Of a DNA stretch of 64,000 nucleotides, positions 1,870 to 59,460 are shown in pieces. A program made the position numbers and the translations under genes. Position 1 is the stretch's first letter. Every line of letters begins with the position of its first letter. Below the pieces are notes generated by a model that worked only from the letters and a program-made list of their open reading frames with translations, was not told where the DNA came from and did no database searches. The stretch is from the NCBI RefSeq assembly GCF_019059575.1, contig NW_024881843.1, positions 124,001-188,000 of the forward strand. Direction: 5' to 3'. The stretch is from Amphibalanus amphitrite. Its lineage: Eukaryota; Arthropoda; Thecostraca; Balanomorpha; Balanidae.

Positions 1870-1950
1870 TTAGGTGACGTCTTACGACAGCTCAGTGAGT
1901 AGTCGTATCTTCCCAATACCTTCATCATTAAGGTCTTACGATCATCTTAA

Positions 1951-3150: not shown

Positions 3151-3154
3151 TTAA

Positions 3155-4557: not shown

Positions 4558-6125
4558 CCTGGCAGGCGGTGGGCCTACCAGCCACCTTCCGCGCGGTGGG
4601 GGGGGGGGGGCATTTTTTGCCCCCCCCCGTATCTCCGAAACTACTTAACGGATCCGGAAAATTCAAACGGCGTTCGATAGCCCTGTCAAATTTGTCGAAG
4701 GAAACCAAATTTCATTGACCTCGGGGTCACCGATGACGTCACAGGTCAGGTCAAAGATAAAATGTTTCACCGTTCACGGGGCTTCTAGGGAAAGCGCTAT
4801 AACACCGAGTAAAACGCATTTTGTCGAAAATCAGCGTTAAGGCGTCAGTTGTCTAGTACATATGTTGCATTAGAGGTCACTGGTCATACCAGGTCAGGTC
4901 ACAGGTCAGGTCACCAAAGGTCACCAAGGGTCACCACATGAGCCCAACTTTACTAAGGTTATGTGATGCATGTTTTATGGCCAGTTTTTCATTTCTGTAT
5001 CGTGAAGTTTAGTTCACGATGTGCGCAATTTGAAAGTTCCATGTCATTTACCCGCGTGATTTTATTTGCGATGTTTACTATGTCAAATTTGAAATCTGTG
5101 CGCATATTTATTTGGATATCATTGAAACTTTGACTTTGGTTGGAATCTTGATCTTTGTTTGTTTTGTTTATTTTATTGAAGAGCAAATTGCATCTATAGA
5201 CTTTCGGCGCACTGTAGTAAGTACGATCTTCAAATGTATGTGAAATTTATTGTATACCTCCTAGTAATCTAAACCGTGCGACCTGTGAAGCTGGACATGC
5301 AATGATTGTTGTTTCTGTTTCAGGATGAAATTTTACTACAAATTATATGTCTCAGTGCGAAGTCTCGTTTTGTTGAGTTACCATTACAATTTCCAACTCA
5401 ATGGTGTTGGTTATAAGACCATCAGGTACGGTTGAGGTCACTTTCTGGTGGAGGTCAGGTCAAGGTCAGGTCAAAAAAGGTTAAATGTCAAAGTTGATAT
5501 TTTTGCTTTAAATGGGTATCGATTCGATGCAGCTCGTCACGGGGAGTCTAATGGTGGTCTTTGTTTTGCGCTACGAGGTCTGGAATTGCTAAAAATTGAG
5601 TTTAAAAATTTGACGTCATCAATTTTGAACAGTTTTTTCGCTATAACTTGGCCAAAAAAAGAGGTATCGATCTCAAATTTGGTATGTAGATAGAAGGCGG
5701 TATGGACTATCACATATATTCCGTTTTTTTCGAAATTCAAAAAACTTGTTGGATTTTTTGGCTATTATATTCAAAAAATCTATTTTTTGATTTTTGGGGG
5801 TCAAAATCCCAAAAAAATCGAAAAACCGAAATAGCAGTTTTGTAGCCCTTTTGATTCCACACCTTTTATATCTTCTGTATCTCTAAACCTGTAGGCCTGA
5901 CAGCTCTTCCCGTGAAACCTTTTTTTGGGTCGAAAATGGCAAAAATGACGTCACTCTGACGTCATTAGCGGCCAACCTATCATAGCCTTTGGAAAAAATG
6001 TTGGTCACCATGTGCGCTAGCTGCTCCCGGGAGGGTACTGAAAGTTTGGTGACGATCGGCGCAGCGGTTCTCGAGATATATCGAAAAAAAACTAAAGGGG
6101 GGGAATGCCCCCACCGCCTGGAAGG
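4558..6125. mobile_element. Family A TTAA-flanked element, copy 2
   Basis: TTAA is present at 4554-4557 and 6126-6129. The termini are CCTGGCAGGCGGTGGG and, complemented at the right, CCTTCCAGGCGGTGGG. Much of the interior is an inverted relative of copy 1: the AGGTCA clusters near 4740-4930 and 5455-5480, the paired TGACGTCA at 5945-5965, and the ATATATTCC block near 5710. At 1568 bp it is longer than copy 1. The extra sequence lies around 4990-5400. Confidence 0.68.
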
Positions 6126-6924: not shown

Positions 6925-7600
6925 GGTCTGAGGTTTCTCAGCTGTTTTTATACAAGTCTTGTGTGCTGAATCCGAAAAAGCTGTCCATTTTTCTCGATTA
7001 GCTCGAGTTTTCACACTATGTCAAGGATAAAAGTTCACACACTGATGCATTAATATGCACATTGGAGTGGGCATGCTGATATATTTTCACCAAGGTTGGA
7101 TATTTCTCAGCTGTTCTAATACAAGTTTCGTGTGCTTAATTCAAAAAAGCTATCCATTTTTCTCGATTAGCTCGAGCTTTCACACTATGTCAATGATAAA
7201 AGCTCACACACTGGTGTATTGATATGCACATTGGAGTGGGCATACTGATACATTGTTCCCCAAAGTTGGATATTTCTCAGCTGTTCTATAATACAAGTTT
7301 CGTATGCTGAATCCAAAAAAGCTATCCATTTTTCTCGATTGGCTCCAGTTTTCACACTATGTCAAGGATAACAGCTCACACACTGATGTATTAATATGCA
7401 TATTGGAGTGGGCATACTGACACATTTTCCCCCAAGATTAAAGATTTCTCAACCGTCCTAATGCAAGTTTTGTGTGCCGAATTCGGAAAAGGTATCCATT
7501 TTTCTCGATTAGCTCGAGTTTCCACACTATGTCAAGGATACACACCGATGCATTAATACCTATGCATATTGGAGTGGGCATACTGATACATTTTGAGCTT
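6925..7600 (+). repeat. Satellite array with about 170-bp unit, four copies
   Basis: The phrase TTTCTCAGCTG or a close variant recurs at about 6934, 7103, 7273 and 7445, spacings of 169, 170 and 172 bp. Each unit also holds TTTTTCTCGATTAGCTCGAG, CACACTATGTCAA and GGAGTGGGCAT. The units diverge by an estimated 10-15 percent. Tandem units of this length are typical of arthropod satellite DNA. The related phrase TCGAGCTAATCGAG appears inverted at about 7968. Confidence 0.85.
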
Positions 7601-9992: not shown

Positions 9993-34775
<24,783 letters not shown>

Positions 34776-36283: not shown

Positions 36284-36810
36284 AAGGACTATCCCACCTT
36301 CAAAAAAGTACCAATTAGGATTCGGAAATGTTACTCATGATATTGTGACGAATTCTGCAAGTTTTTACGCGTTTTCATCGTATACTTTTTGAGATATTGC
36401 GACTTTTATATTTCATCGTGACGTCATTTATTATAGATCGGATCTGTGACGTAATGAAGGATTTACTTCATGCCAATGTGGGGGAAATTTGGCAGCAAAT
36501 ATAGGTATTTACTCTCAAATATGGCGCGGCTCATACAATAAAAAAATGTATCTGATTGGTTTATTCGTAAATCAAGTGATACTTCACTTGAATGCGTAAC
36601 AGGCGTTCAAAAGGCAAATGACGTCGTCAGATTGCCGTTAATGGTTAAGAGATTGGGACTTGCACAAGGAACATTTTCAAATGATGGGAACGAATTTCTT
36701 CAACACCACGAGGCTGCGGGGGTTGCGACCAAGATAGATAGCGGTTTCTGAACCTCGCCGCAAATTTGGCTATCTCAACTCAAACCTAATGTAAAGGTGG
36801 GATAGTCCCT
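36284..36810. mobile_element. Family B TTAA element, copy 1
   Basis: The ends are AAGGACTATCCCACCTT and AAGGTGGGATAGTCCCT, with TTAA at 36280-36283 and 36811-36814. 527 bp, non-coding. The right TTAA is shared with the family A element that starts at 36815. Confidence 0.78.
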
Positions 36811-38188
36811 TTAACCCGCGCCCCACTGGGGGGGGGGGGGGCTATTCATAGCCCCCTCACGTTTTTCTGCAATAACTTCTAAGCCGCTTGACGTATCGCC
36901 GCCAAACTTTCATTAACTCCGGCTGCATCAATTTAACACCTTGTGTCAAAATTTGAACATCGTATCTATCATAGGTCGGCCGGAAACGACGTCAGAGTGA
37001 CGCCATGTTCGGCCGATCTCGACGCAGAACATTGAACCACGGGAATCGCTCCCAAGAGCTCAGTTTTTTAGTTAGATCCAATTTCTTTGCATGAGAGGAC
37101 TCAGTCTCAGAATAGACTGCGCTATCAAACTGCTACCTCAGACTTTCAAAATTTTGAAAATTTTGAGAAAAAAAATTGAAAAATTTTGAATATTAAATTT
37201 CAAAATTTGTTTTTTTATCTTTTTTCAAAAAAGTTTTTGATTAAAAAAAAACGGAATATATATCCCGCGCCCCACTGGGGTCTGCGTATAACACGCCCTA
37301 CTGGGGGGGGGGGGGGCTATTCATAGCCCCCCCTCCTAACTCCGAAACTACTGGGCCGATCGTCAAAATTCAAACGGCGTCTGATAGCCCCGGAAAAACT
37401 GTCGAACGAAACCTAATTTCATTGACCTCGAGGTCACCGATGACGTCACAGGTCAGGTCAAAGTAAAAATTATTAGCATTTTGGCTTCTTCACGTTTTGG
37501 GCTCTGGCCGCCGTCTTACAAGTCAGATCAGGCTAATTTTTGGTTCACACACTCGTGAACAGATGCTCTAGATACTCTGAGGGTACCAAACTTGTACTTT
37601 GATTTTCAGGTCAAGGTTAGGTCATCACAGGTCACGAAAATATTATATCATCCGTCGGTCACGTGACACATGTTTTATGGTCCATTTAGGCCAAACATTT
37701 CGAATTTGATGTCGTCTGTGTCATTCGAGGTCATTTTGAGTCAAATTCAGCTTAGGTCAGGTCACGTTCAGGTCAAAAAGGTCAAATTTTGAAGTTAAAA
37801 TTTTTCAACAACAAAGGTGTCTATTGGATGCAGTTTGAGCTCAGGAACACGATGGTGCTATTTATATTGGCGTACGATGTCAAATTCGTGCTGAAAAATT
37901 GATTTGAAAAATTAAAATAATTGTTAATGATGCAGTTTGAGCTCAGGAACACGATAGTGCTTTTTATATTGGCGTACGATGTCAAATTCGTGCTGAAAAG
38001 TTGATTTGAAAAATTAATAATTGTTAATTTTTTGCAATAATGCGTATAACTTGGCCATTTTTGAAGATATTTAGCTTAAACTTGCTAGAGTTAGTCATAA
38101 TAATGCGTTCTATCACATATATTCCGGTTTTTTCGAAAAGTCAAAAAAAAATTGAAAAAATGTAAAAATATAAATTTTGAATTTTATT

Positions 38189-38600
38189 ATGGTCATTTCA
38201 CGATGGAACCGTGCAAATTATATTAGCGGGAAGTTGCGCCCTAGTCACCTCCCACCTCCGCAAGCACCAGGTCGTGCATCAACACGGAACGGGCCGTGCC
38301 ACCTAGGTGCGCCGGGGAGAACTACAGGTCGCATAGTGCCACCAGATGTCGCGCAAACACGACAGGCGCAGATAAATAGACTTTAGATCGTGGGTGATAT
38401 ATTGTAACAGCGTTGATTTCTACCATGCATGTATTTTAACAACTCACAGCGTGGGCGCAGGCACTGGAACCACAACGGCTACCACAACTGCACGTAAGTA
38501 TGTCCGCATACGACTTATGTTTGGACTCTAGGCAACGCTGCCCAAGCGGCCTTTTCCGTTAGGACGCCGAGCGACGGAGTGCGCGCAGCAATTTTTTTTT
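38189..38600 (+). repeat. Split direct repeat A1
   Basis: Begins ATGGTCATTTCACGATGGAA and ends GCGCGCAGCAATTTTTTTTT. It matches A2 (44822-45233) with only a few substitutions and a T-run length difference. An open frame of about 65 codons starting at the ATG (38189) is kept in both copies apart from a C-terminal Leu/Phe and a few other changes; I cannot say whether it is translated. Confidence 0.9.
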
Positions 38601-38661
38601 TGTTTACCGGTTGAAACCCGCGGAGAGTAGAGTGATAGCTTTAGCGGCGGCTACCGCCACC

Positions 38662-38686
38662 ATGGGTCGACCAAGAAGGAACACCG
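38662..38686 (+). CDS. Possible short first exon of the element
   Basis: CGCCACCATGGG is an excellent eukaryotic start context. The reading frame MGRPRRNT is followed at once by a consensus donor GTGAGT (38687-38692). The matching acceptor could be CCCTACCAG at about 44162-44170, just before the recombinase frame. Speculative: no transcript evidence is available. Confidence 0.3.
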
Positions 38687-39529
38687 GTGAGTTACCAGCT
38701 ATCCGGCCTGTTAGTTACGCGCGGGCCCTTCGCACGAGGCAATCATGGTGTGCCCCTCTAACCGGCGGTCTAATTTTCGTCAGCCAATTAGTCTGCCAAG
38801 TTGCTTGAATACTGGCAGTTGGCACTTTTGTTCTGTTACTACCCTTCGCCCCATACTAATGTGGCCGCCCGTCTCAGACACTCAGTTGGCCCTCCGGGCG
38901 GTCACATACACCAGCTTGTAGCTTGGCCCTGACCTATGCCCTGCCCACTGGCATGTCATGCCATGCCAGCGCCACCTTCACAATCTTGCTCGGTTACATG
39001 CACCAGTGTCATCGGTTCGCACTAAACAATGCCCTAACCGCACACTGGCACGCCATCCCGAGGGCATGCCCGACAAAGCCGGCCATACCCAGGGGTGGAG
39101 TTTTGCCTAAATCCCAGGGGGTGCTTTTCTGTTTGATACTTTGGTTAACAAGCTGCTATGTTGGTTTTGCATTGTTTGTGGGGGTGCTTTGCGTTATGAA
39201 GGGGTGCTCGTGCACCCTCAAACCCCCTTTTCTCCACCCATGGCCATGCCTGACTGGCCTGCCTATTTACCTGGGCTGTCATGCTACGTCACCACTAGAT
39301 CATCAATGCAGCATAGCAGCCGGCTTTCGTGCTTCCACAGAATGGCCCTATGCCAGCAGTGACCTGACACCCAGTCGGCCCGCTGCAGACCGGTGCAAGA
39401 CGACACCCCGGATCAACGGCCGTCCGACCGCCGGCCACGGGCCCGTCGCGGCCTTGAGCTGACGCCACGCCGGATGAGTCACCCGGCCGCCCCCCGGTGC
39501 GGAGGACGGTCAAGGCTGTCCGCTGGCCT

Positions 39530-40300
39530 GCCCCAGCTTACAACTCACTGTCAACTACCATGTCATTACGTCGCTACTAATGACATGTCTGCTGGCCTGC
39601 CCCAGCATACCACTCACGGTCACCTACCATGTCATTACGTCGCTACTAATGACATGTCTGCTGGCCTGCCCCAGCATACCACTCACTGTCACCTACCATG
39701 TCATTACGTCGCTACTAATGACACGTCCGCTGGCTTGCCCCAGCATACCAATCACTGTCACCTACCATGTCATTACGTCGCTACTAATGACACGTCCGCT
39801 GGCTTGCCCCAGCATACCACTCACTGTCACCTACCATGTCATTACGTCGCTACTAATGACACGTCCGCTGGCTTGCCCCAGCATACCACTCACTGTCACC
39901 TACCATGTCATTACGTCGCTACTAATGACACGTCCGCTGGCTTGCCCCAGCATACCACTCACTGTCACCTACCATGTCATTACGTCGCTACTAATGACAC
40001 GTCCGCTGGCTTGCCCCAGCATACCACTCACTGTCACCTACCATGTCACTATGTCCCTACCATGACATGTCAGCTGGCCCCTGCCCCCAGCACATAACTC
40101 AATGTCAACTACCATGTCATTACGTCGCTACTAATGACATGTCCGCTGGCTTGCCCAGCATACAACTCACTGTCAACTACCACGCCATTACGTCGCTGCC
40201 AATGGCATGTCCGTTGGCTTGCCCCAGCTTACCACTCACTGTCAACTACCATGTCATTACGTCGCTACTAATGACATGTCCCCGCTGGCCCTGTCCCAGC
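39530..40300 (+). repeat. 69-bp minisatellite, about 11 units
   Basis: The unit contains CATGTCATTACGTCGCTACT and GCTGGCTTGCCCCAGCATAC. Starts at 39559, 39628 and 39697 show exact 69-bp spacing. Since 69 is divisible by three, one frame stays open for over 200 codons, repeating a 23-residue peptide (CHYVATNDTSAGLPQHTTHC plus HLP). Units at the ends are more diverged. Confidence 0.93.
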
Positions 40301-41518
40301 AGCTCCTTCTTGAGCACTGACCAGCGGCATGACGTTTAATTTCTGAGGACACCAGTACTTCTCATGCAGTGGCAGTGTTTAAGTTTCCCTAACTCAGGTT
40401 GGATGCAGGTCAGCTTGTATGGTCGCGTGAGGGTGCATATTCTGCATTCACGAACCACAAACCCCCAGGTCATGTCCGAGCTTTCCCCCATCTTACTGAG
40501 TTGTTCTACTTCTCCTCAACAAGTTGAGGGTCAGGACCGTTGCCGAAGGCGACTATAAACCTCAGATCGCTGAGTTCCGCTCAATATACTACATATGTAC
40601 CCTGGCTAAGCTTCGTCATAGCACCCTGTCACCACTGCCAGCCAGCTTACCATCACCGTTACTATTCACCTCTAGTTTATCTCACTCTAAAGTATTATTA
40701 TACTATTATCTATACTACTATACTACCACTATCTACCCCCAACAGTCGCCCCTCCACCTCAATCGGGATATCCCGTCACGCCGCTGCTGACAACCACAAT
40801 CTCGTCCGTCGCACGGACTACCCCACCCGCCATAGGTATATCCCGTCACGCCGCTGCTGACAACCACAATCTCGTCCGTCGCACGGACTACCCCACCCGC
40901 CATAGGTATATCCCGTCACGCCGCTGCTGACAACCACTATCTCGTCCGTCGCACGGACTACCCCGTCTGTCTTATACGCCGTCATGCCGCTGCTGACGAC
41001 ACAGCTATCTCGTCCGTCGCACGGACCGCCTCGTCTGTCATACATGCTGTGACGCCGCTGCTCACATCCACCTATCTCGCCCGTTGCACCGACTGTCACG
41101 TCGGTCACATATACTGTCACACCGCTGTGACTACCCCGCCCATCACACGGACTGTTCGTCTGTCTATTACACCGTTACGCACCCGGCTGTCAATATGTCA
41201 TGCCGCCGCCTACCCGCCTTGCCTGTCACACACCATGTCACGCCGCCGCCGACGTACCAAACCGTCACGCCCGCCCTGCTCGCCACCACCGCTGTCATGG
41301 CGCCGCCGACAGCCCACCGTCACACCAGACGCTGCTCGCCTGTTTGTCATGTGCCGCCCATCACCTGGTCACCCAGCCGGCTGCCGCGTTATATAGGTAT
41401 TTCTAAGCCGGGCCGTCACCCGCCACCGCCTGAGGCTACCCGGCGTCCTAGGGAGTGCCGTTTTTTTTTTTTTGCGTCGCGGCGAGACTGCCAGTATTTT
41501 CAACAGTGCCCCTACCAC

Positions 41519-41704
41519 CAGGGGTGCGGAGCCGGAGCCGGAGCCGACGGAGCCGGCACATTTTTGCCCGGAGCTGGAGCCGGCGACGGAGCCGCCATGA
41601 CATTTCACCCGCAGCCAGAGCCGGAGCTGGAGCCAATTTTTTTTCTCTCCGAAGCCGGAGCCGGAGCCGAAGCTGTCTGAGTTTTCCACGGCTCCGCTTC
41701 CCTG
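41519..41704. mobile_element. hAT-like MITE built of GGAGCC hexamers, 8-bp target duplication
   Basis: 186 bp with ends CAGGGGTGCGGAGCCGG and GGCTCCGCTTCCCTG. It is flanked by identical CCTACCAC at 41511-41518 and 41705-41712. The interior is mostly GGAGCC/GGCTCC hexamers. It belongs with the GGAGTC-rich array at 61311-61846. Confidence 0.85.
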
Positions 41705-42119
41705 CCTACCACGCTCTGCTATTTCCACTCAAACTTCGCTAAACAGCTGGTCGGTTTTTTTCACGTCATACCAAACTGTCCTGCCCGCCGCGCTCGTCAC
41801 CACCACTATCACCGCCGGCCGTCTCGCCCGTTTGCCATTTCCCACCTACGCCTGGTCACCCTGCCAGTCACCGCGGCGCCTTTCTGGACTGAACCGGGCT
41901 GTCCCCTGCCACCGCCGGCCGCACGTCTGTTTGCTAGCGTCCCCCCCCCCCCTTAGCTGGTGCACTTCTCTCGCCGCGCTCCCCGCCGCGACCGGCTCCT
42001 CGGCCATCCTATCAGTATCGGGCCGGTGGCTCCCCGCCGTAAGTCTGTTTACTTAGCGCCGCCCTCCTCACCAGCGCCCATTGTTTGCGCTCACCTGTCG
42101 CAGAACGCTGCGGCCATCG

Positions 42120-42210
42120 CTGTGTGGTGGTTAGTGTGATGGATCCGTTTGTGTGCCGTTAGGACTATCGCCAGGGTGTCCCGGTTCGATCCCAGGCAGC
42201 GCCGGACCTT
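42120..42210 (+). other. tRNA-like sequence within the recombinase element
   Basis: GTGGTGGTTAGTGTGATGG (A-box-like) is followed about 50 bp later by TCCCGGTTCGATCCC (strong B-box). A diverged copy lies at 44042-44128 (TGTGGTGGTTAGAGTGGGG...CGGCTTGATTCC). The ~200 bp upstream of the two copies also resemble each other, so they may be parts of a larger direct repeat. Confidence 0.45.
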
Positions 42211-43329
42211 CGGGCTGCGGCAGGCTGTGTATCTTTAGCACAGGGGGCTACGCGCCTGCGCATCGCCTTTGTTGCCACCTACCGCCGATACGTCACGAGC
42301 CGTCACTCTGCTGTCGGTCATGCCCGTTCCACGGTCACCGCGTCTGTCATATGCTGTTGTCACGCCACCACCACCGGCCGACCTGTCACGTTCATCGCAC
42401 GAGCTGCCTATCCGTCACATATCGCTTACACGCCGATACCGTCACGCCGTTGCCGACAACCTGGCATGTCATGGCTCGGACCTGGTCAGTCATGGTCTTG
42501 TCATACACCAACGCCACGCCGCGTCTGACATCACACCTATATGGGCATCACAGTCAAGTCGCTGCGGACCTCCACCTATCGTTCCCGCCGCCCCGGCCGT
42601 CCTGTCCGTCACGAACCACCGTCACGCTACTTCTGACGTCTAAACTGACATGCCACCACACGGACTACCCGTCTGTCTTATACCGCTGTTACGCCGCTGT
42701 CACGCCGCTGCTGACAGTGACGCCTGACAGTCCACCATCATGGCACCCCGTCTGTCATCTACCGCTGTCGCGCCGCAGCGGACAAATCATCTATCATCCC
42801 CGCCGCACGGGCTGTCCGCCTGTCACGCACCACGGTCACGCCGCCGCTGACACTTCTGTCATGTCTAACGCACGGAGTGTCCATCTGCCATATAGGTACT
42901 GCTATCATGCTGCTTCCGACCGTTCACGATCATACTTAGCCCTAGCGCCCGGACCGACCCATCTGCCATATACCGCCGCCATGCCGACACTCCACCTATC
43001 CAGGCCGCCGCCCGGACCACCCCGTACGTCTTCACCGTTGCCACGCCGCCGCCAACGGCACACCTACCATGGCTTCGCCAGGCCCCCCCCCCCCATCTGT
43101 CATATACCACCGTCACACCGTTAGTCCAAGCACTCCCATCATCTACCGAGCCGGACAAATCATCCACCGAGTCTGTCACGCCGCCGCCGACAGACAATTC
43201 GTCATGCCGCCGCTCTAGCCGCCCGCCTGTCACACACCAATGTCACTCCCGCCGCTGACAGATCAACCGCCATGTCCGACGCCGACGGCGGCCTGTGTGC
43301 CACGCCGTCCCCCACCCGCCGCCTGCTTA

Positions 43330-43852
43330 AGGCCGCCGTCCACTGTGCGGAACGCGTGCGGTCCGTACGGAATTTAACACAGAACCCTATGGGCGCATCC
43401 GGTCCGTACGGAAATCGTGTGCGCTCCGTCCGGACCGCATCCGAACGGCAATCAGCTGTTGATTTTCCGTCAGCTCTCCGCATGCGTTTCGGATGCGGTT
43501 GCTACGGAGACGGAAGAGTGATGTCCGACGCGTTGAACTTTTCTGCGGAAAACGCATCCGGAACGTCCGGAACAGACGTGGTTTGGGGCCGTATCGGAGG
43601 CAAACATTGTGAATTGTACGAAGAATTGGAACTCGATCATCATGAAGTAAGTAAAAATTATTTCCTTAGAATGGCAAGAGTATTCGCTGCTGGTTACTTG
43701 CAATATTTTATTTGGTAATAAGTGATAGGAAACATTTATTAGCTCTCCGCATCCGGACCGCATCCGGACCGCATCCGGACCGGATGCGGCCAGCGTGCGG
43801 CGACATTCCGGACGGACTCCGGACGGAATTCCGTCGCAGTGGACGGCGGCCT
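43330..43852. mobile_element. PIF/Harbinger-like MITE, TTA target duplication
   Basis: The ends are AGGCCGCCGTCCACTGTGCG and CGCAGTGGACGGCGGCCT. TTA is present at 43327-43329 and 43853-43855. Inner arms are rich in GGTCCGTACGGA / GCATCCGGACC words. The ends resemble those of the element at 818-1869 (AGGCCGTGTTACACTGCCG), so the two likely used the same type of transposase. Confidence 0.75.
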
Positions 43853-44170
43853 TTACCCTGCCATAGGTACTCCGCGTCGTCTCCTGGTCCGGGCCGTCGC
43901 CTACCACCGCCTGCGGACAACACTCGTTCCGCCGCGCCCGCCGTCGCGGCCGGCCTGATAACCCTTCTCGTCTCGGGCCGTCGCTCGTAGGTGCCTTTTG
44001 CTCAGCGCTCATTGTACCGTGTTTGCTCGCCGCGGCTTCGTATTGTGGTGGTTAGAGTGGGGAAACCGTCGGTGTGACAATCCGGGCCAAATCGTCCGGT
44101 GACCCGGCTTGATTCCAGGAATCGGCGGACTTGTGCGTACCGTTACCGGCCCGTGAGGTGTCTGTCCCTA

Positions 44171-44695
44171 CCAGGAATAATTTTTTCTACCTGCTTCGGG
44201 GCTCTGCGCGGACGCGATTACCTCGCTCCGGCCGCGCACTCCCACCACCACCGGCGCACCTGTCAGTGGCGTCACATCTCGACCCACCGGGACCGGCTGG
44301 AGGTGCAGCTGCCCGCCTCCAAGACCGACCAGCTCTACACCGGCACGGTGGTCAGCCTCCCCAAGCTGGGCGGCCCATGCTGCCCCGTCCGCGCCATGCG
44401 GCGCTACCGCCCGCCCCGGCCCGCCGCGCCTCCTGCCCAGCCGGTCCTCGTCCGCAGCACCGGTGCCTACTGCACCCCGGGCTGGCTCAACGGGGTCCTC
44501 CGCCGCGCCGCGCTGACCGACACTGGCAAGATCACCACCCACAGCCTCCGCATCGGCTTCGCCACCGCCGCCGCCGCCGCCGGTGTGACGGAAAGCGTCC
44601 TCCAGGTGTCGGGCAGGTGGCGCGGCTCATCGTACCTCCGGTATGTCCGTGGTCCCCGACTGGCCGTTTGGGAGGCGTGCCGCGCCATAGTATAG
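44171..44695 (+). CDS. Tyrosine recombinase, catalytic half
   Basis: About 175 codons following an AG acceptor-like CCCTACCAG; the frame also reads through upstream to 44099 without an ATG. Motifs: CFGALRGRDYLAP (first catalytic Arg region), LPASKTDQLYTG (the SKTD block typical of eukaryotic YRs), CPVRAMRRY, TTHSLRIGFATAAAAAG (HxxR), SGRWRGSSYLRYVRG (W at the second His position, then the nucleophile Tyr). It ends at TAG 44693-44695. YRs cut and rejoin DNA at short identical sites through a 3'-phosphotyrosine. The N-terminal core-binding domain is missing, so the protein is truncated or continued from an upstream exon I cannot place. DIRS/Ngaro/PAT and Crypton recombinases share these motifs; the flanking split repeats favour the DIRS order. 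Confidence 0.8.
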   Translation, partial: PGIIFSTCFGALRGRDYLAPAAHSHHHRRTCQWRHISTHRDRLEVQLPASKTDQLYTGTVVSLPKLGGPCCPVRAMRRYRPPRPAAPPAQPVLVRSTGAYCTPGWLNGVLRRAALTDTGKITTHSLRIGFATAAAAAGVTESVLQVSGRWRGSSYLRYVRGPRLAVWEACRAIV

Positions 44696-44716
44696 CAATA
44701 CATTTGGGTCAACTTT

Positions 44717-44821
44717 GGCGTCTTTCAGAAGAGCCCAGGAAGGGGCCAGGGGTCGAGGCCAGCCAATGCCAAAACACCGAACTATAGCTCCGCCCGGACT
44801 CACTTAGCAACCTTAACGCTA
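44717..44821 (+). repeat. Split direct repeat B1
   Basis: GGCGTCTTTCAGAAGAGCCC... to ...CCTTAACGCTA, repeated as B2 at 45255-45360. B1 abuts A2 directly at 44821/44822. Confidence 0.9.
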
Positions 44822-45233
44822 ATGGTCATTTCACGATGGAACCGTGCAAATTATATTAGCGGGAAGTTGCGCCCTAGTCACCTCCCACCTCCGCCAGCAC
44901 CAGGTCGTGCCTCAACACGGAACGGGCCGTGCCACCTAGGTGCGCCGGGGAGAACTACAGGTCGCATAGTGCCACCAGATGTCGCGCAAACACGACAGGC
45001 GCAGATAAATAGATTTTAGATCGTGGGTGATATATTGTAACAGCGTTGATTTCTACCATGCATGTATTTTAACAACTCACAGCGTGGGCGCAGGCACTGG
45101 AACCACAACGGCTACCACAACTGCACGTAAGTATGTCCGCATACGACTTATGTTTGGACTCTAGGCAACGCTGCCCAAGCGGCCTTTTCCGTTAGGACGC
45201 CGAGCGACGGAGTGCGCGCAGCAATTTTTTTTT
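44822..45233 (+). repeat. Split direct repeat A2
   Basis: Second copy of A1, same orientation, ending in a slightly shorter T-run. It is followed by 21 bp of unique sequence (TCTCCCTCTGTTCTTTCTAG) and then B2. Confidence 0.9.
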
Positions 45234-45254
45234 GTCTCCCTCTGTTCTTTCTAG

Positions 45255-45360
45255 GGCGTCTTTCAGAAGAGCCCAGGAAGGGGCCAGGGGTCGAGGCCAG
45301 CCAATGCCAAAACACCGAACTATAGCTCCGCCCGGACTCACTTAGCAACCTTAACGCTAA
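45255..45360 (+). repeat. Split direct repeat B2, right end of the recombinase element
   Basis: Matches B1 and ends TTAACGCTAA. After it the middle-layer family A element resumes (TCTAAAATTTTCGAAATTTT). Confidence 0.9.
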
Positions 45361-46652
45361 TCTAAAATTTTCGAAATTTTCAAAATTTCGAAAATCCGAG
45401 ATAGCAGTATGATAGCGCAGTCTATTCTGAGTCCTCTCATGCAAAAAAATTGGATCTAGCTTAAAAACTGAGCTCTTGGGAGCGATTGCCGTGGTTCAAT
45501 GTTTTGCATCGAAATCGGCCGAACATGACGTCACTCTGACGTCATTTCCGGCCGACCTATGGTGGGTACGAAGTTCAAATTTTGACACAAGATGTCAAAT
45601 TGATGCAGCCAAAGGTACTGAAAGTTTGGCGTCAATACGTCAAGCGGTTTGGAAGTTATTGCAGAAAAAACGGGAGGGGGCTATAAATAGCCCCCCCCCC
45701 CAGTGGGGCGCGGGATATGATAGAACACATGCTTATGCCTTACTCTAGCAAGTTTTAGCCAGACACCTTCAAAATGGCCAAGTTATACGCATTATAGCAA
45801 AAAATTCGCAATTTTAAATTTTTCAAATCAATTTTTCAGTACAAATTTGACATCGTACACCAAACTAAATAGCACCGTCGTGTACCTGAGCTCAAACTGC
45901 ACCCGATAGACACACTTTTTGTTGAAAATTTTCAATTTTAAAATTTGAACTTTTTTGACCTGAAAGTGACCTGACAGCTACAGTCAGATGAAAATGGCCT
46001 CAAATGACACAGGCGACCCCGAATTCGAAATGTATGGCCTAAATGGACCATAAAACATGTGTCACGTGACCGATTTATGATATAAGATTTCCGTGACCTG
46101 TGATGACCTGACCCTGACCTGAAAATCAAAGTACAAGCAAGTTTGGTACCCTCGGGGTAGATATCTAAAGCATCTGTTCACGAGTGTGTAAACCAATAAT
46201 CAGCCTGCTCTGACTTGTAAGACGGCAGCCAGAGCCAAAAATGTGAACAAGCCAAACATCGATAAATTTTACTTTGACCTGACCTGTGACGTCATCAGTG
46301 TCACCTCGAGGTATATGAAATTAGGTTTCGCTCGACAGTTTTTCCGGGGCTGCCGGGATACCGTTTGAATTTTGACGAGCAGCCCAGTATAGTTTCGGAG
46401 TTAGGAGGGGGGGCTATGAATAGCCCCCCCCCCGCCCCCCAGTAGGGCGCGTCATACACAGACCCAGTGGGGCGCGGGTTAAGGCAAAATCACCAGTTTC
46501 ATTTACTGTCCCACGGTGTGCCCACCGCACAGTAGGCGATCCATTGTTCTAGCGCTTCAGGGACCCAGGATACCAAATTGAAAAATCTAGCCGAACGATG
46601 GTTTATTACGAGCGAGCGAGCGCAGCGAGCGAGCGAGTTCATACTGAATTAA

Positions 46653-47169
46653 AGGGACACTCCCACCTTAACATTAGTTTTGAGTTGAGATAGCCAAATT
46701 GGTGGCCATGGCCTGCAAATACCGGTTTGGGCACTCACAACATCGAAAAATGCTTTAATTCGAAGATACGGAATTTCAAACTTGCAGTTTTCGGATTCTA
46801 AGGGGCTAATGCATTGGAATGCCCCCTTAGAATTTGTGACGTCAGCGGAGATCTAACGATTTTTAAAGCTTAGACTAAAACCATCGTTAACACGTGGTGG
46901 TATACGCTGCTTTGCGCGCAACGTCTGCCGCACTTTAACCCTATTAGTGGCAGGCTTCCTGGCTACGGCTGCCAAATTATTGTTTCCAAATAAAGTCGCT
47001 AGTAACAGGGGAGATCCCAAAAAGTAAACAAAAGTAAAAGCCTAATATCTTGAAAACCAGTGAATATTTTTCGGTGAAATTTGGTAGATATTCGTTTTCG
47101 CTCTTTCTGAACCAAGGGACATCACTTTCATGCCAATTCATTAACTTTTTTGAAGGTGGGAGGGTCCCT
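46653..47169. mobile_element. Family B TTAA element, copy 2
   Basis: The ends are AGGGACACTCCCACCTT and AAGGTGGGAGGGTCCCT, with TTAA at 46649-46652 and 47170-47173. Relative to copy 3 it carries a ~50-bp extra piece (about 46937-46985, starting AACCCTATTAGTGGCAGG) that equals the terminus of the element at 21850-22740, a footprint or solo end. Confidence 0.75.
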
Positions 47170-47399
47170 TTAAGGGAAAATCCTGAGTATGAGCGGCCGG
47201 CCGGCCGGCCGGCCGTGGGGACGCTCTTCAAAAGCTAATACCTATCTTAGGAATGGGACATCCGATTGACAAGCGGTCTTCTTTACTGAATGTCACTTGG
47301 ACGTAAAAGTTCTGTGGTGTGATGGCCACCATGCGTTCTTGCCAACCACCGCACGTGGCGCGTGGTAAAGTTGGACATTTTTTAAGAACCCCCAAAATT

Positions 47400-47725
47400 G
47401 CAACCTCAATAACGGCACAACGGCTGGGCCGATTGAATTGAAACTCGGTACGCAGTTAGGTCTCCATCAGATAATTCATCTGCATGTGTTAAGGTTGGGG
47501 TGCTACAGCACATGCGCACGTGCAGGGGGCGCTCCCAGATCTCGAGAACGGCTGGGCCGATTGCGCTCAAATTTGGTACACGGCTGGGGACCAGTTAGTA
47601 GGGTGGCGTGCAAAAGTTAGTTTGGAGTGGACCCTGATTGCACGTGCGCACGTGCAGAATGCCGCTTCCAGATCTCAGGAACGGCTGGGCCGATTGCGTT
47701 CAAATTTGGCACACCGCTAGCGACC
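47400..47725 (+). repeat. Degenerate tandem repeat, about 130-bp unit
   Basis: CGGCTGGGCCGATTG recurs at 47421, 47549 and 47682 (spacings 128 and 133), each followed by AA.T.GGTAC/CAC. TGCGCACGTGCAG lies between units. Open frames across this block come from the repetition. Confidence 0.7.
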
Positions 47726-48294
47726 GGTTAGAAAAGTGCTTTGCACAAGCCTGTTGGAAGTACCCTCTCGCCCTTGCGCACGTGCAGGGCTCACTATCTC
47801 GCTCGCTCGTTCTTCGCCCAAAAGGCGTTTTACTGGTTGTGTAGCCGCTAGCCAGATATCCTGGCAGGTGAAAAGCAATACTATTTTTGACATTATGCAA
47901 GGCACTTCAAAACCATACCCAGCTGAACGCCACCCAAGCTCGATAGGCTGAAAGATCTGTCCTTGGCCGTTTCCCGACCCTTGTTGTTGTGCGCTCTGTT
48001 ACTCATGAATATCGCCCAAAATACGTTTGAATGCAATTCCAGTTTGTACTTTACATCTTCCCAAGCATCATGCATGTCAAATAAGTTTGTTTTTAAATTG
48101 CGTATGCATTTGTAATCATTTGCATTATACCCTTTCAAATGCATCGCTCCGATTCCGTATAATAGGCTTTGGCAATGCGCAACTTTTGCCATCCGCATGA
48201 TCCGGCATTAAAAACCCCATTACCTTATAGCATAGGATAGTGTGGGGTAATTTGAACATATTTTTACGTCTTCTCCGTTGTACCAAATTCCAGC
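47726..48294. other. Spacer, no gene
   Basis: No coding signal or repeat that I can support. The phrase GTGGGGTAATTTGAACATA (48242) resembles GTGGGGTTATTTGAACATA at 50819. Confidence 0.4.
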
Positions 48295-52472: not shown

Positions 52473-52475
52473 CTG

Positions 52476-52780
52476 CGTATAATACGCCCTACTGGGGGGG
52501 GGGCTATTCATAGCCCCCCCCTCCTAACACTGAAACTACTGGCCTGATTGTCAAAATTCAAACGGCGTCTGATAGCCCCGGAAAAACTGTCGAAAGAAAT
52601 CTAATTTTATTGACCTCGAGGTCACCGATACGTCACAGGTCAGATCAAAGTAAAAATTATCGACGTTTGGCTTGTTCAAATTTTGGGCTCTGGCCGCCGG
52701 CTTACAAATCAGATAAGGCTAATTCTTTATTTAAGCACTTGTGAATAGATGTTTTAGATATCCTGAGGTACCGTAAACGG
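52476..52780 (+). mobile_element. Family A half-element
   Basis: Starts TGCGTATAATACGCCCTACT, then a G-run/CTATTCATAG/C-run hairpin. It matches 37282-37600 closely (CAAACGGCGTCTGATAGCCC, GAGGTCACCGAT). No right end is seen; the sequence after about 52780 is unrelated. Confidence 0.6.
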
Positions 52781-53838: not shown

Positions 53839-56562
53839 ATGAGTAGACCTCAGGCCGCGCCCCCTCCCGCTAGCGCCGGCGGGAGGAGGGGCGCCTCTCC
53901 GGGGGGATCGGCCCGGCGCCCGGACCACCACAGCCGTCGTCTCAAGAACCGTCCCTACCACCGCAACAGGAACCGGAGAAGCCACATGAGAATCGTCTCA
54001 TGGAATGCGGAGGGGCTCCGCACCAAGCAAACGGAGCTCCAGCGCTGGCTCACGACTGTCAGAGCGGACATTGTGGCGATACAAGAGGCGCAGCTTCCCG
54101 AGGTGGCTCCGAGGCTGGCCGGCTATCAACCCCCGGTAGTGGTGCGCCGCGCGCGAGGCCGAACAGCAGGCGCGGCGGTGAAGGGCGGAGACGTCTGCAT
54201 GTATGTGCGGGCAGGCCTACACTTCACCGTCCTGGAGGGCCCGTTCTTGGCGAACACGGACGACACGACCGAGATATGTGGCGTTCGGGTCCTCGGCCAA
54301 ACCCCCCTCGACGTCATCAATATATACAGACCGCCCATCCGGGCGACGGAAGACGATCGACAGGACCACTTCGACCCGCGCCGCCTCCCTGATGGCCCCC
54401 GAGTACTCCTGGTCGGCGATGTAAATGGACACCACCCTTCCTGGGACGACAGCTGCGACGAGGCTGACTCCGTTGGGGAACGCCTGGCCGACTGGATGGA
54501 GGACGTCGGGTGGAGGCCCCTCAATAGCGGCGCCCCGACCTTCATCAGTTACCGGACCGGGAGTCAGACAGCCCCCGACCTCGCTGCCTGCGGCTACGAA
54601 CTAGCTGCCAGGACCCACTGGACGCGGGGATCTGACCTCGGGAGTGATCACCTCCCCATGGTGGTCGAACTCCGCGGGACGGATCCCCCGCGAAGGAAGA
54701 GGAAGACGCGGTGGGCCCACCACAAAGCCGACTGGGTCGAGTTCGGGAGGGCATGTGAGGCAGCCCTCTCCGTCCCGGCCCTCCCCCCCCCCCCCCCCCC
54801 ACAGGCCACGGTTCAACTTCTGGCCACCCGATTCACCGCAGCAGTCCAGGACGCCGCGAAGGAGTTCATCCCCCGGGGAGCTAGAAGAGACGCCAAACCG
54901 TGGGCTCTCCACCCGGACCTTCAGCTGGCGACTCAGGAACGCCGGGCAGCCAGAGACAACGTGAAACCGGGAGACCCCCAATCGAGAACTCGCTGGATCG
55001 AAGCTAAGCGCCGGGCCAGCCAAGTGGAGAAGCGAGTTACCAGGGAACAATTCCGGGACTTCGTTACCACCGAGCTGAACCGACCTACGAGCGTGGGCCG
55101 AGTCTCCCGGCTCCTGAAGAAGTGGGAGGGCGCCGTGGACGACGACCACCGAGAGGGCGAGGCGATGCGGATCGGAGACCGGTTGCTCGTAACAGCCGAG
55201 GAGAAGGCCAATGCGTTCGCCGCCCAGTACGCCCATGTCTCCCGCCAGGTGAGGGCGCCGAAGATCGACCGAGCTGCGCGACGACGACTGTCGGATCTCA
55301 GACCGCGTCGCTGCGCCGACTGTGACGGCGACCACACCGGGTGCTGCTCGCCATTCTCCGAGGAAGAGCTGATCAGAGAGGTCCAACTTCTCCAACTGAA
55401 GAAATCACCAGGACCAGACGGGATCACCAACGAGATGATCAAGCATCTCGGTCCAGTGGCGTGCAGAGCCCTCCTCCGCGTGATTAACCTCTCGTGGAGA
55501 GTCGGGGAGGTCCCCCGGGAGTGGCGCACGGCCACCGTGGTTCCGATCCCCAAGGCCTCTAAGGACAAGCGTCTGCTGACGAGTTACCGCCCGATCGCGC
55601 TTACAAGCAGCGTCTCCAAGCTCGCCGAGCGACTGATACTAGCTCGGCTTGCGTTCGTGGCGGAGAGTCGCGGCCTCGTCCCTGATGAACAGGTGGGCTT
55701 CAGAGCCAAGCGGTCTGCAGAAGACAGCATTGGCCGGCTCGTCCAGAACGTCCAAGAAGGATGGCAGCGGCCCAAGTATGACAGGCGTGCTGAGCGACCG
55801 GACGGCAGCACAGCCCAGAAGTACCTCCTCACCGCGTACGACTTCAGCCGAGCGTACGACGTGGTGGACCACAAACTTCTGAAGCTGCGCCTCCTCGAGC
55901 TGGGCCTCCCTCTGTGCCTGGTTCGCTGGGTGTGGAGCTGGCTACGAGACCGTCGAGTGCGGGTTGAGGTGCAGGGTGCGCTCTCCAAGGAGTGGATCTT
56001 CCGCGCGGGCCTCCCTCAGGGAAGCGTCCTGTCCCCCCAGTTGTTTTTGTTATGGGCGGCAGGACTAGCCGAGGCTCTCCGCGCACCTGACATCTCACCG
56101 TACATATACGCTGACGATACTGCTGTGCTCAGCTCCGGAAACACTCTGGAGACGGCGATACAACGCGCCCAGACAGCGGCGGACGTTCTGGCCGCCTGGG
56201 CTCACCGAAACAAGATGCTGGTGGCCGGAGAGAAAACCCAGCTGCTAGTGCTGTCGCAGAACGCCAAGGACGCCGTCGGGTGCACTATCAAGGTGTCAGG
56301 GAAGACGGTGCGGGCGGGCGACTCACTGGTGCTCCTGGGCATCGAGATCGACCGCCGACTCCAGTTCGGAGCACACTGCCGCCGTCTGAGAAGACGGGTC
56401 CGCCCCCGCGTCGCTCACCTGAGACGCCTAGCCGGCCGTAGCTGGGGGGCTGGACGAACAGGCTCTGCGAACAGTCGCAAACGGATATGTCCGGGGGGCT
56501 CTGGAGCACGCTGCCGCTGCATGGCTGCTAGCAGCTGCGCCATCTCACGCCGAGCTCATTGA
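53839..56562 (+). CDS. Non-LTR retrotransposon ORF: APE endonuclease and reverse transcriptase
   Basis: 907 codons from an ATG. The first 48 residues are basic and Pro-rich. APE-type endonuclease follows: MRIVSWNAEGL near residue 50, VAIQEAQLP, GDVNGHHPSW near 192, GSDHLPMV near 268. The RT runs from about 520: KKSPGPDGITNEMIK, YRPIALTSSVSKLAERLI, DEQVGFRAKRSAEDS, YDFSRAYDVVDHKLL, GLPQGSVLSPQLF, and YADD near 757. The endonuclease nicks target DNA and the RT copies the element's RNA at the nick. All visible catalytic motifs look intact. The last ~35 residues are out of frame because of one extra G in the run at 56444-56449; the true frame continues as the next entry. Confidence 0.92.
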   Translation: MSRPQAAPPPASAGGRRGASPGGSARRPDHHSRRLKNRPYHRNRNRRSHMRIVSWNAEGLRTKQTELQRWLTTVRADIVAIQEAQLPEVAPRLAGYQPPVVVRRARGRTAGAAVKGGDVCMYVRAGLHFTVLEGPFLANTDDTTEICGVRVLGQTPLDVINIYRPPIRATEDDRQDHFDPRRLPDGPRVLLVGDVNGHHPSWDDSCDEADSVGERLADWMEDVGWRPLNSGAPTFISYRTGSQTAPDLAACGYELAARTHWTRGSDLGSDHLPMVVELRGTDPPRRKRKTRWAHHKADWVEFGRACEAALSVPALPPPPPPQATVQLLATRFTAAVQDAAKEFIPRGARRDAKPWALHPDLQLATQERRAARDNVKPGDPQSRTRWIEAKRRASQVEKRVTREQFRDFVTTELNRPTSVGRVSRLLKKWEGAVDDDHREGEAMRIGDRLLVTAEEKANAFAAQYAHVSRQVRAPKIDRAARRRLSDLRPRRCADCDGDHTGCCSPFSEEELIREVQLLQLKKSPGPDGITNEMIKHLGPVACRALLRVINLSWRVGEVPREWRTATVVPIPKASKDKRLLTSYRPIALTSSVSKLAERLILARLAFVAESRGLVPDEQVGFRAKRSAEDSIGRLVQNVQEGWQRPKYDRRAERPDGSTAQKYLLTAYDFSRAYDVVDHKLLKLRLLELGLPLCLVRWVWSWLRDRRVRVEVQGALSKEWIFRAGLPQGSVLSPQLFLLWAAGLAEALRAPDISPYIYADDTAVLSSGNTLETAIQRAQTAADVLAAWAHRNKMLVAGEKTQLLVLSQNAKDAVGCTIKVSGKTVRAGDSLVLLGIEIDRRLQFGAHCRRLRRRVRPRVAHLRRLAGRSWGAGRTGSANSRKRICPGGSGARCRCMAASSCAISRRAH

Positions 56563-56569
56563 GCGCGAG

Positions 56570-57880
56570 ATGAGGGCGGCCGCGCGGATCGTCACCGGAT
56601 GCCCCCGCTCCACGCCGACACACGCGGTGATGGCGGAGGCGGGGCTGGCCCCTATGGAAGAATGGAAGAAGGTCCTCGCCGCTCGGCTACTGGGCCGTGC
56701 CCTGGCGTTACCGCCGACCGACCCCCTGCGCAGGACAGCTGAGGCCACGGCGCCCTCGCGGCTGTCTTCTGTGCGGGGGTGGCAAACGCTGGGCCGCCAG
56801 TTGCTGGCTGAGGTGGAGGTCACCGCACCAATCGAACCGGTGCTGCCTCCTCGCATCCCGCCGTGGGAGCGCAGAGGAAACGTCACATTCTGCCTGGACG
56901 TGGGGCCGCTACGAACCGGTGCGACAGAGGGAGAGAAGATACGGGCTGCCACCCGTCATCTTGCCGCTCTGCCACAGAGAGCAACCTGGTTGTGGACAGA
57001 CGGCTCCGTGGAGGGTGGCGTCAAGGACGGAGGTTCTGGAGCTGTGGTCATCTGGTCGGACGGGGAGGAGGAGGACCTGAAGACACCGGCCGGTCGACAC
57101 TGCTCCAGCTACCGAGCAGAGATGCTCGCCCTGGCGTCCGGGCTTGAGCACCTGCTCGACAACCCACGAGACCGTGACATCCCCATCGTGATCTGCACGG
57201 ACAGTATGGCCTCCCTGGCTACCCTCCGGGCGGGGCCAACCGCGCAGACGTCACCGCTAGGCGTCAGGATCTGGCGGGCGTTTTCGCGTCTGTCCCGGGA
57301 TGGTCACCGCCCGATTCAAGCCCAGTGGGTGCCTTCCCACTGCGGGATCGAAGGCAACGAGCGGGCAGACGCCATAGCAAAGGAAGCGGCGGAGCTACCA
57401 CAGGAGGACATCCCCGTCGACACCAGGACCATCTGCCGAGCAGTAGCCAGAGCCGCCAGAGAGGCTACCATCAAGAACTGGCCAGCCGGGTGGTTCCGGT
57501 CCGTGATGGGCGACCGCCTACCGCCCCGAGTTACCGGCTTGGAGCGGTACAGCGCGGTGGATGTCCACCAGCTGAGGGCCGGGCACTGGTCTGGTGCCCC
57601 GTCCTACCTGCACAGAATCAGACGCTCCCCGTCTCCGATCCCAGGCGGATGCCAGGGGTGCAACAGAGACGAATGTCGAGAGTCCTGGTGCCCCCTGTGC
57701 CGAGAGGAGCCGGACAAGCCGGACCATGTCCTCCTGCGCTGCCCTGCCCTGATGGGAACGAGAACAAGAACATGTTATACCATCCACCCGGAACCGGAGG
57801 AGGTCCGGGAGACCGCCGTGGTGGCGGCCCTGGCGGCGGCCGCCAGAGGCGCCCAGAGCCGACAGGCTACACTTCACTGA
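56570..57880 (+). CDS. Retrotransposon ORF continuation: RNase H and zinc-knuckle C-terminus
   Basis: This is the +1-shifted continuation of the preceding ORF; its frame is open from about 56450, so the ATG at 56570 is unlikely to be a true start. RNase H motifs: LWTDGSVEGG (first Asp, about residue 143), YRAEMLAL (Glu), CTDSMASL (second Asp), VPSHCGIEGNERADAIAKEA (His/Asp region). The C-terminus has CQGCNRDEC and CPLCREEPDKPDHVLLRCP, a zinc-knuckle-like end common in I/R1/jockey proteins. It ends at TGA 57878-57880, about 20 bp before the (CAA)n tail. The related minus-strand copy (23318-25010) keeps the same order. Confidence 0.88.
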   Translation: MRAAARIVTGCPRSTPTHAVMAEAGLAPMEEWKKVLAARLLGRALALPPTDPLRRTAEATAPSRLSSVRGWQTLGRQLLAEVEVTAPIEPVLPPRIPPWERRGNVTFCLDVGPLRTGATEGEKIRAATRHLAALPQRATWLWTDGSVEGGVKDGGSGAVVIWSDGEEEDLKTPAGRHCSSYRAEMLALASGLEHLLDNPRDRDIPIVICTDSMASLATLRAGPTAQTSPLGVRIWRAFSRLSRDGHRPIQAQWVPSHCGIEGNERADAIAKEAAELPQEDIPVDTRTICRAVARAAREATIKNWPAGWFRSVMGDRLPPRVTGLERYSAVDVHQLRAGHWSGAPSYLHRIRRSPSPIPGGCQGCNRDECRESWCPLCREEPDKPDHVLLRCPALMGTRTRTCYTIHPEPEEVRETAVVAALAAAARGAQSRQATLH

Positions 57881-57937: not shown

Positions 57938-59460
57938 TGTGATCGCCGCAATGGAACAAAAACATCCAGGAGCCCCAATTGACGAGCAGCTGCCTCTCCC
58001 TCCCTCTTCTTCAGACACTGCACCGCTCACGGTGACACCAGAGGAGGTGGAGGCTGCCATAAACTCGATGCTCACCGGGTCATCGGCCGGCCTCGACGGC
58101 ATGAGACCACTACACCTGCGTCAGCTCATCTCCAGAGAAGCGGCGGAGAGTGGACGCCGTCTCCTCCGCTCCTTGACAGCGCTAGTGAACTTGTTTCTCG
58201 CCGGTCAGGTCCCTGACTTTGCAAGAGACGCGCTCTTCAGTGTATCGCTTTGTGCACTGAAGAAAAAGGCGGTGGACTGCGGCTTATAGCGGTCGGGAGC
58301 GTGTACCGGCGCCTGTCATCTCGCATGGCCGCCCGGCACATGGCGTCTTGCCTGGGAGCTGAGCTCCGACCCATCCAGCTCGGTGTGGGGACACCCTCAG
58401 GCTGCGAGGCGGCGGTTCATGCAACACGCCGCTTTATCGAAATGAGCCAGAGGGCAGCCGCTCCACATGTGCTAGTCAAGATCGACGTATCCAACGCGTT
58501 CAACTCGGTGCGGCGCGATGTCTTATTGGCATGCATCAAGCAGCGCTGTCCCGAAACCTACCACCTAGCCTATCAGGCCTACGGTGCACCAAGCGCTCTC
58601 ATCATGGATGGCCAGGCAATCACCTCAGCATGTGGCGTGCAGCAAGGCGATCCCCTCGGGCCAGTCGCCTTCGCTCTAGCCATAGACCCCTGCGCCAAAG
58701 CTGTGACAGCGCCTCTGAACGTTTGGTATCTCGATGATGGTACAATCGCCGGCCCCGCCGACACAGTCGCATCTGACCTGGTAGCCCTTCGCTCAGCCCT
58801 GTCAGCAGCTGGCCTCAACCTGAATGCTGCGAAATGCGAAGTAGCCTTCCTCGGTGCACCAGACTCAGACCTCCGTGGTCCCGCTATAAGCGCCATCACA
58901 GCCGCTCTGCCGGACGTCAAGGAGACCCAGCTCGACAACCTTTTTCTGCTCGGGTCTCCTCTGACAGACGGTGGTATCGCGGCAGCTGGAGAGGCCGCCT
59001 CAGCACTGGTACGGAGGCTCTGCAACCGGTTGCGTGAGCTGGACAGCCACACAGCCGTTTTCTTCCTCGCTCACTACGCTTCCGCTCCGCGACTGACATA
59101 CCTACTGCGCTCCGCACCAACCTTCAAGGAGGAACACACGCTCCGCGACACCGACGAGGTCGTTCGGAGTTGTCTTGAAGCCGTCTCGAGCGTGACCATC
59201 AGCCCTGAAGCGTGGGAATAGGCGTCCCTTCCTGTCAAACTCGGAGGACTCGGCGTTCGAGCAGTGAAAGAGCTAGCACTACCAGCCTACATCGCATCCC
59301 TAAACGCAGCCATGCCACTGATCGAGCTGATCTGCCCAGACGCGCCCAACGGAGAGCCCTCTACTGCCCTGGAGACAGCAGTTTGTGCATTTAGGCAGCA
59401 AACCGGATTGGCCGGGTCGTCAGCAGACATGCTCCCAACTGGAGATATGGCCAAGTCCAA
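57938..59460 (+). pseudogene. 3' part of the YLDD reverse-transcriptase element (RT domain)
   Basis: Resumes with IAAMEQKHPGAP and continues through GLDGMRPLHLRQLI, SVYRRLSSRMAARH, LGVGTPSGCEAAVHATRRF, KIDVSNAFNSVRRDVLLA, ACGVQQGDPLGPVAFALAI and WYLDDGT (YLDD at 58727-58738), then LNAAKCEVAFLG. The RT core is complete. Two lesions are visible: a one-base deletion near 58260-58266 (after ...CALKKK) and an in-frame TAG at 59219-59221, beyond which the same frame continues (ASLPVKLGGLGVRAVKELAL). The element is therefore dead. It looks like a non-LTR-type RT, but the YLDD box and GVQQGDPLGP motif differ from the YADD/GLPQGSVLSP of the element inserted in it. Confidence 0.85.

Follow-up and report, generated by a model that had tools for sequence, protein, structure and literature searches.

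How can an element that ends in the split direct repeats of a tyrosine recombinase (YR) retroelement, and in which no reverse transcriptase (RT) is detected, have arrived at its present site? The question is raised by a locus of Amphibalanus amphitrite, which lies in a stretch of 64,000 nt on contig NW_024881843.1 (assembly GCF_019059575.1, positions 124,001 to 188,000 of the forward strand). This whole stretch was analyzed and is called the window below, and all coordinates refer to it. The element starts at 38189 and ends at 45361, one nucleotide to the right of the end at 45360 given by the original prediction, which had been made from the sequence and had left three options: the copy is decayed, it is a non-autonomous derivative, or it belongs to a kind of recombinase element that does not need an RT of its own. 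The second option is best supported by our analysis, and the other two less so. The locus is likely a young insertion of a non-autonomous split-direct-repeat YR retroelement of the PAT, Ngaro, or VIPER layout, which would have lost its interior before the jump and would have been mobilized in trans.

Split direct repeats and the insertion site

The features of the locus are listed in Table 1. Along the element the repeats follow one another in the order A1...B1-A2-B2, as in split-direct-repeat YR retroelements. A1 and A2 are identical at 409 of 412 nt, all three differences being substitutions (positions 38262/44895, 38278/44911, and 38381/45014), and B1 and B2 are identical at all 107 nt. In the self-BLAST of the window the A pair has an E-value of 0.0 and the B pair of 1.4e-49, which rules out chance for both. 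No further copy of A or B was found among the listed matches of this comparison, that is, matches of at least 60 nt at E 1e-5, those shorter than 800 nt being listed when more than 400 nt apart. B1 passes straight into A2, and the two have the dinucleotide AT at 44822-44823 in common. Both the order of the repeats and this circle-like joint agree with the original prediction, as does the length of A (412 bp), while B is slightly longer than the predicted 105 bp or so.

YR retroelements of the split-direct-repeat type integrate without target-site duplication, and YR-mediated integration of a circle joined B-to-A predicts an AT common to the target and the circle junction. Both features can be examined here, since the element interrupts a module, X. 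When the 400 nt that precede A1 were joined to the 400 nt that follow B2, positions 329-756 of this query aligned over the join to the opposite strand at 37261-36812, with 83% identity over 454 columns; thus module X is whole about 0.9 kb leftward and is broken here by the element. At the join, 18 of 22 positions match in an ungapped 22-mer, and the target has one AT at the site of the element. The left junction reads TTATT-AT-GGTC, the B1/A2 junction CTA-AT-GGTC, and the right junction CTA-AT-CTAAAA, AT being present at all three. Joining the flanks rebuilds module X around a single AT, that is, integration without target-site duplication is seen against the empty site at 36812-37261, with an AT-rich gap close by. 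The junctions fit recombination of a putative B-to-A circle at a target AT.

The flanks have a structure of their own. Modules X and Y stand on both sides of the element as inverted copies (X+ Y+ at 36757-38118 on the left, X- Y- at 45368-46706 on the right), 82-98% complementary segment by segment, and both modules end in G/C runs (GCGCCCCACTGGGGGG...CTATTCATAGCCCCC). These flanks look like nested miniature inverted-repeat transposable elements (MITEs) or fold-back elements. More relatives of X and Y lie at 52473-52772 and at 1944-6100, where the order X Y- Y+ X- suggests a separate palindrome.

An apparently partial recombinase and an interior of minisatellites

The original prediction placed the catalytic half of a recombinase just before B1. 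Indeed, SKTD (44318), HSLR (44540), GRW (44612), and YLRY (44633) all fall within one open frame, 44078-44692, which runs for 205 codons without a stop and closes shortly before B1 begins at 44717. The Arg of HSLR and that of GRW are 22 residues apart, and the second Tyr of YLRY follows the latter at 9 residues, spacings close to the motif arrangement of Cre and XerD. Among the PHROGs profiles, phrog_1 (integrase) matches the last 157 aa of the frame at E 3.3e-4 (approximately 44399-44605) and the whole frame at E 5.8e-4; together with a Pfam score below cut-off, this weak match points to the C-terminal part of a YR only. By eye, recombinase-like sequence begins near 44240, about 27 residues ahead of the Lys of SKTD. 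Further upstream in the frame there is no recognizable N-terminal domain or first catalytic Arg, and a search for the Arg-box motif in six frames of 38189-44825 gave a single match, at 41463, whose context is not recombinase-like by eye. The recombinase appears to be 5'-truncated, and because the first catalytic Arg is not recognizable, it is probably a remnant incapable of functioning alone.

The interior open reading frames (ORFs) of at least 45 aa were compared with Pfam, and in 75 of these 76 ORFs no match at E<=1 was found to RT (RVT), to RNase H, or to a methyltransferase, including one of the PAT type. The omitted ORF, 44696-45016, lies almost entirely in B1-A2. As a positive control, an element of the long interspersed nuclear element (LINE) type at 53839-57877 gives matches to RT (1e-23) and RNase H (1.2e-13) with this library, so that the originally noted absence of a visible RT holds for the ORFs covered. 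Since RT and RNase H were not found, the element is not counted as an autonomous member of the split-direct-repeat group; a non-autonomous member would be without them. Nine other Pfam families matched one ORF each, namely Lipoprotein_21 (1.1e-6), zf-C2H2_REST (8.4e-5), DUF2092 (1.3e-4), Nuc_recep-AF1 (0.016), SsgA (0.12), PDS5 (0.15), CinA (0.16), Prion_bPrPp (0.2), and Porin_5 (0.22), and are taken for artefacts of low-complexity or tandem-repeat sequence. No relatives of the element were found by tblastn against phages, by protein and pattern searches of IMG/VR, or by a pattern search of GTDB contigs, results of little weight, these being non-eukaryote collections.

Between A1 and B1 the interior spans 6,116 nt, more than the 5.5 kb estimated originally, and it contains both of the minisatellites noted then and three MITE-like insertions in place of two. 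Tandem Repeats Finder gives 11.1 copies with 92% matches for the 69-bp minisatellite, which has 11 profile matches. The 70-bp minisatellite has 5.4 copies by the same program at 40768-41135 and decayed units scattered to 43282, with 15 profile matches in total at E<=0.01 and none in 10 mononucleotide shuffles; among the eight best of these 15 units the mean identity is 73% (52-100%, 28 pairs). Shared ancestry of the 69-bp and 70-bp units is unsupported, its score being matched by 335 of 1000 shuffles. Two of the MITE-like insertions, b and c, have perfect target duplications (CCTACCAC and TTA, respectively); that of insertion a is imperfect, and this insertion, absent from the list of inverted repeats (minimum 12 nt) and read by eye, is less certain. 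The ends of insertion b are presumably hAT-like, and insertion c we take to be PIF/Harbinger-like.

The two tRNA-like units noted originally are present as tRNA-like stretches, 62% identical in a global alignment without a control, and the first carries a box-B-like motif (GGTTCGANNC at 42183). They are not called as tRNA genes: ARAGORN reported 0 genes in bacterial mode and with the standard code, with and without introns. With a lowered cut-off (-ps75) the calls rose to 32 for the element and 327 for the window, numbers that mark them as noise. In Rfam, the interval 36500-47900 had a single match at E<=1, whose 14.5 bits fall short of the gathering score of 90. The base composition of the locus is skewed, with C exceeding G on the + strand in the four 2-kb bins that cover the element and a skew of -0.28 at 40-42 kb. 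The GC skew lies between -0.14 and -0.28 in the three 2-kb bins of 38001-44000 and between -0.08 and +0.07 elsewhere in the window.

Table 1. Features of the element and of its interrupted target, in coordinates of the window
Feature	Position	Strand	Basis or remark
Module X, intact inverted copy (empty site)	36812..37261	-	83% identity over the join (454 columns)
Module X, left piece of interrupted target	38117..38188		
A1, left terminal half of split direct repeat	38189..38600	+	409/412 vs A2
MITE-like insertion a, putative, approximate bounds	39090..39241		GGGTGGAG-type ends; imperfect 8-bp duplication GGCCATAC/GGCCATGC
69-bp minisatellite	39517..40281		Tandem Repeats Finder, profile
70-bp minisatellite and decayed scattered units	40768..43282		Tandem Repeats Finder, profile
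MITE-like insertion b	41519..41704		Ends CAGGGGTGCGGAGCCG; perfect 8-bp duplication CCTACCAC; inverted repeat 16 nt, 88%
tRNA-like unit 1	42126..42235	+	GGTTCGATCC at 42183; no tRNA call
MITE-like insertion c	43330..43852		Perfect ends AGGCCGCCGTCCACTG; 3-bp duplication TTA; inverted repeat 17 nt, 100%
tRNA-like unit 2	44046..44140	+	62% vs unit 1
Apparent YR, C-terminal part (K in SKTD, HxxR, GRW, Y)	44240..44695	+	Stop at 44693; start set by eye
B1, internal half repeat	44717..44823	+	Circle-junction-like run into A2; common AT 44822-44823
A2, internal A copy	44822..45233	+	
A2-B2 spacer, 21 nt	45234..45254	+	
B2, right terminal half repeat	45255..45361	+	107/107 vs B1
Module X, right piece of interrupted target	45362..45717		

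Age of the insertion and competing explanations

Under the reverse-transcription model, A1/A2 and B1/B2 are expected to be nearly identical at insertion (PMC6681497). Between the paired ends, 3 of the 519 sites compared are different (0.6%), while the 70-bp units have a mean identity of 73%; thus the interior was probably filled with minisatellites before insertion, and the element was probably already gutted at its last move rather than decayed later. A split-direct-repeat YR retroelement is favored because the layout agrees with it, as does an insertion that duplicated no target sequence. With no RT and a partial recombinase, mobilization would have depended on a full-length relative. We suggest that the coding interior was lost before the last jump, minisatellites and perhaps MITEs taking its place, so that the ends and the final portion of the recombinase gene would be all that remained. 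The RNA of such an element would be copied by the RT of the relative, the A and B repeats serving to complete the ends. Reverse transcription would then yield a circle joined B-to-A, and the recombinase of the relative would cross the AT of this circle with an AT of the target.

Several observations weigh against this scenario. For the recombinase, the Pfam profile PF00589 (Phage_integrase) scores below cut-off (E 0.17) and aligns with the C-terminal part of the profile (approximately 44495-44626), the NCBIfam search of the frame gave no match, and of two PDB sequence searches one gave an unrelated match (E 0.17) and the other none. The single-sequence AlphaFold model, with a mean predicted local distance difference test (pLDDT) score of 37.3, is too poor for use, and an unrelated interior ORF scored 5e-5 in the same PHROGs scan (phrog_38348, no function). 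As to age, gene conversion could have preserved the similarity of the ends if the copy is older, the minisatellite units could have diverged before capture, and the 69-bp array (92% matches) is far more uniform than the 70-bp units. The join of the flanks lies within AT-rich sequence and is followed on the right by alignment gaps of 5 nt and 16 nt in two alignments, so that a small indel may have arisen at integration. Finally, the listed self-BLAST matches contain no second copy of the element in the window.

A competing explanation is decay in place, a rather improbable history in which an autonomous PAT or Ngaro element inserted here and lost its interior at this site, the minisatellites and MITEs coming later. 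The three MITE-like insertions and the truncated recombinase are the leftovers expected of such a history, no second copy of the interior is seen in the window, and the 69-bp array, being 92% uniform, is possibly recent. However, decay in place is disfavored because the ends are nearly identical beside a more diverged interior: the 3 differences in 519 sites leave little time for 70-bp units at 73% and tRNA-like units at 62% identity. This argument from time would be escaped if conversion had homogenized the ends.

Less probably still, a DNA-only YR element with ends A...B integrated beside a solo A-B remnant, and A1...B1 and A2-B2 are tandem insertions. This would be in line with the 21-nt spacer that divides A2 and B2, with the lack of a detected RT, and with tandem integration at a common AT, which would give an identical junction; isolated AB repeats are also reported for Ngaro in Cafeteria (PMC8547959). 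Yet the order of the repeats equals the split-direct-repeat layout as described in PMC4157794, and the spacer is not alien to that layout, since SIRE/VIPER is reported to have about 30 bp of unique internal sequence separating its two halves (PMC6681497). Lastly, an autonomous recombinase element moving without any RT is highly improbable and was set aside: its 205-codon stop-free frame does bear recombinase motifs and does end just before B1, but neither the N-terminal domain nor the first catalytic Arg can be recognized in it, and the six-frame Arg-box search gave the one unconvincing match at 41463.

Known relatives, neighbors, and significance

The preferred reading, a trans-mobilized split-direct-repeat YR retroelement, can be compared with several known systems. 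PAT elements are described as carrying A1-B1-A2-B2 repeats, and Ngaro and VIPER as having split repeats with internal repeats downstream of the recombinase (PMC4157794). The present element resembles the TOC3-type or echinoderm-form PAT and Ngaro in its split direct repeats, and Ngaro and VIPER in the location of the internal repeats downstream of the recombinase. PAT and Ngaro elements differ in that they have RT, RNase H, and recombinase, no complete one of which was detected here; the DIRS group, PAT included, is described as encoding a methyltransferase too (PMC4157794, PMC8547959). Kangaroo of Volvox carteri likewise has split direct repeats, and the direction of the recombinase is reported to differ between TOC3 and Kangaroo (PMC4157794); in contrast to Kangaroo, the recombinase frame of the present element reads forward and precedes the internal repeats.

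Elements of this kind are reported from various genomes. PAT-like families are listed in Chlamydomonas and Volvox (PMC3266345), and PAT-like elements in every Chlamydomonas-related species compared in PMC8226300. GC-rich Ngaro elements of the structure A1-[ORFs]-B1A2B2 are described as breaking virophage elements, and isolated AB repeats are reported too (PMC8547959); for amphioxus a Ngaro-like element is described whose split direct repeats are arranged in a distinct way (PMC2632668). Gutted forms are represented by SIRE, a truncated non-autonomous VIPER reported to consist of A2-B2 only, with 185 + ~30 + 220 bp (PMC6681497). Like SIRE, the present element has the ends of a split-repeat YR retroelement without a coding interior and a short piece of unique sequence that separates the A and B halves; SIRE has only A2-B2, whereas here the full A1...B1-A2-B2 is retained with a filler of 6.1 kb.

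Cryptons, with a YR as the sole domain, are without split repeats, and here split repeats are present and the YR appears truncated. TOC1 of Chlamydomonas reinhardtii, the subject of Day et al. 1988 (a title cited in PMC4061028), reportedly has split long terminal repeats, a length of about 5.7 kb, an internal tandem array of 76-bp units, and no RT gene. Compared with TOC1 by this description, the present element is alike in its split repeats and internal tandem array and in that no RT was detected, and it thus falls within a TOC1-like definition (split repeats, internal minisatellite, no RT). The element is probably a new trans-mobilized non-autonomous split-repeat element and not a new kind of system, similar gutted elements being already known.

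Additional features were identified in the window. The LINE-type element used as the control also encodes an endonuclease and is organized in two overlapping frames of 907 and 482 aa, and a second RT frame is found at 58217-59218 (3.1e-17). The open frame 27569-28465 on the complementary strand has a sub-cut-off match to an ERAP1-like C-terminal domain (4.5e-6) and is possibly an exon of a host aminopeptidase. Among other repeats are an inverted 1.3-kb pair with 94% identity (11798-13108 and 30344-31621), a tandem pair with 99% identity (24955-25821/25814-26684), and a 172-bp tandem array of 3.9 copies (6934-7594).

YR retroelements are rare, and their integration has mostly been deduced from layout. 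This copy offers a local empty site, and AT recurs at each of its three junctions; both features are consistent with a circle that integrated and left no target duplication. The element is apparently also a further case, beside TOC1, of a split-repeat element in which minisatellites replace the genes; apart from these features, it is an ordinary transposon remnant. Minisatellite-filled interiors might be a recurring and perhaps mechanistically favored outcome in split-repeat YR retroelements, arising by template switching, with TOC1 and the present element as two independent cases, an idea that we consider unlikely but offer tentatively. Were it true, the template would be switched again and again on an intermediate that is circular or self-priming, so that the coding interior is deleted and tandem units of the 70-bp class multiply, and families free of RT would keep moving in trans, with MITEs as passengers.

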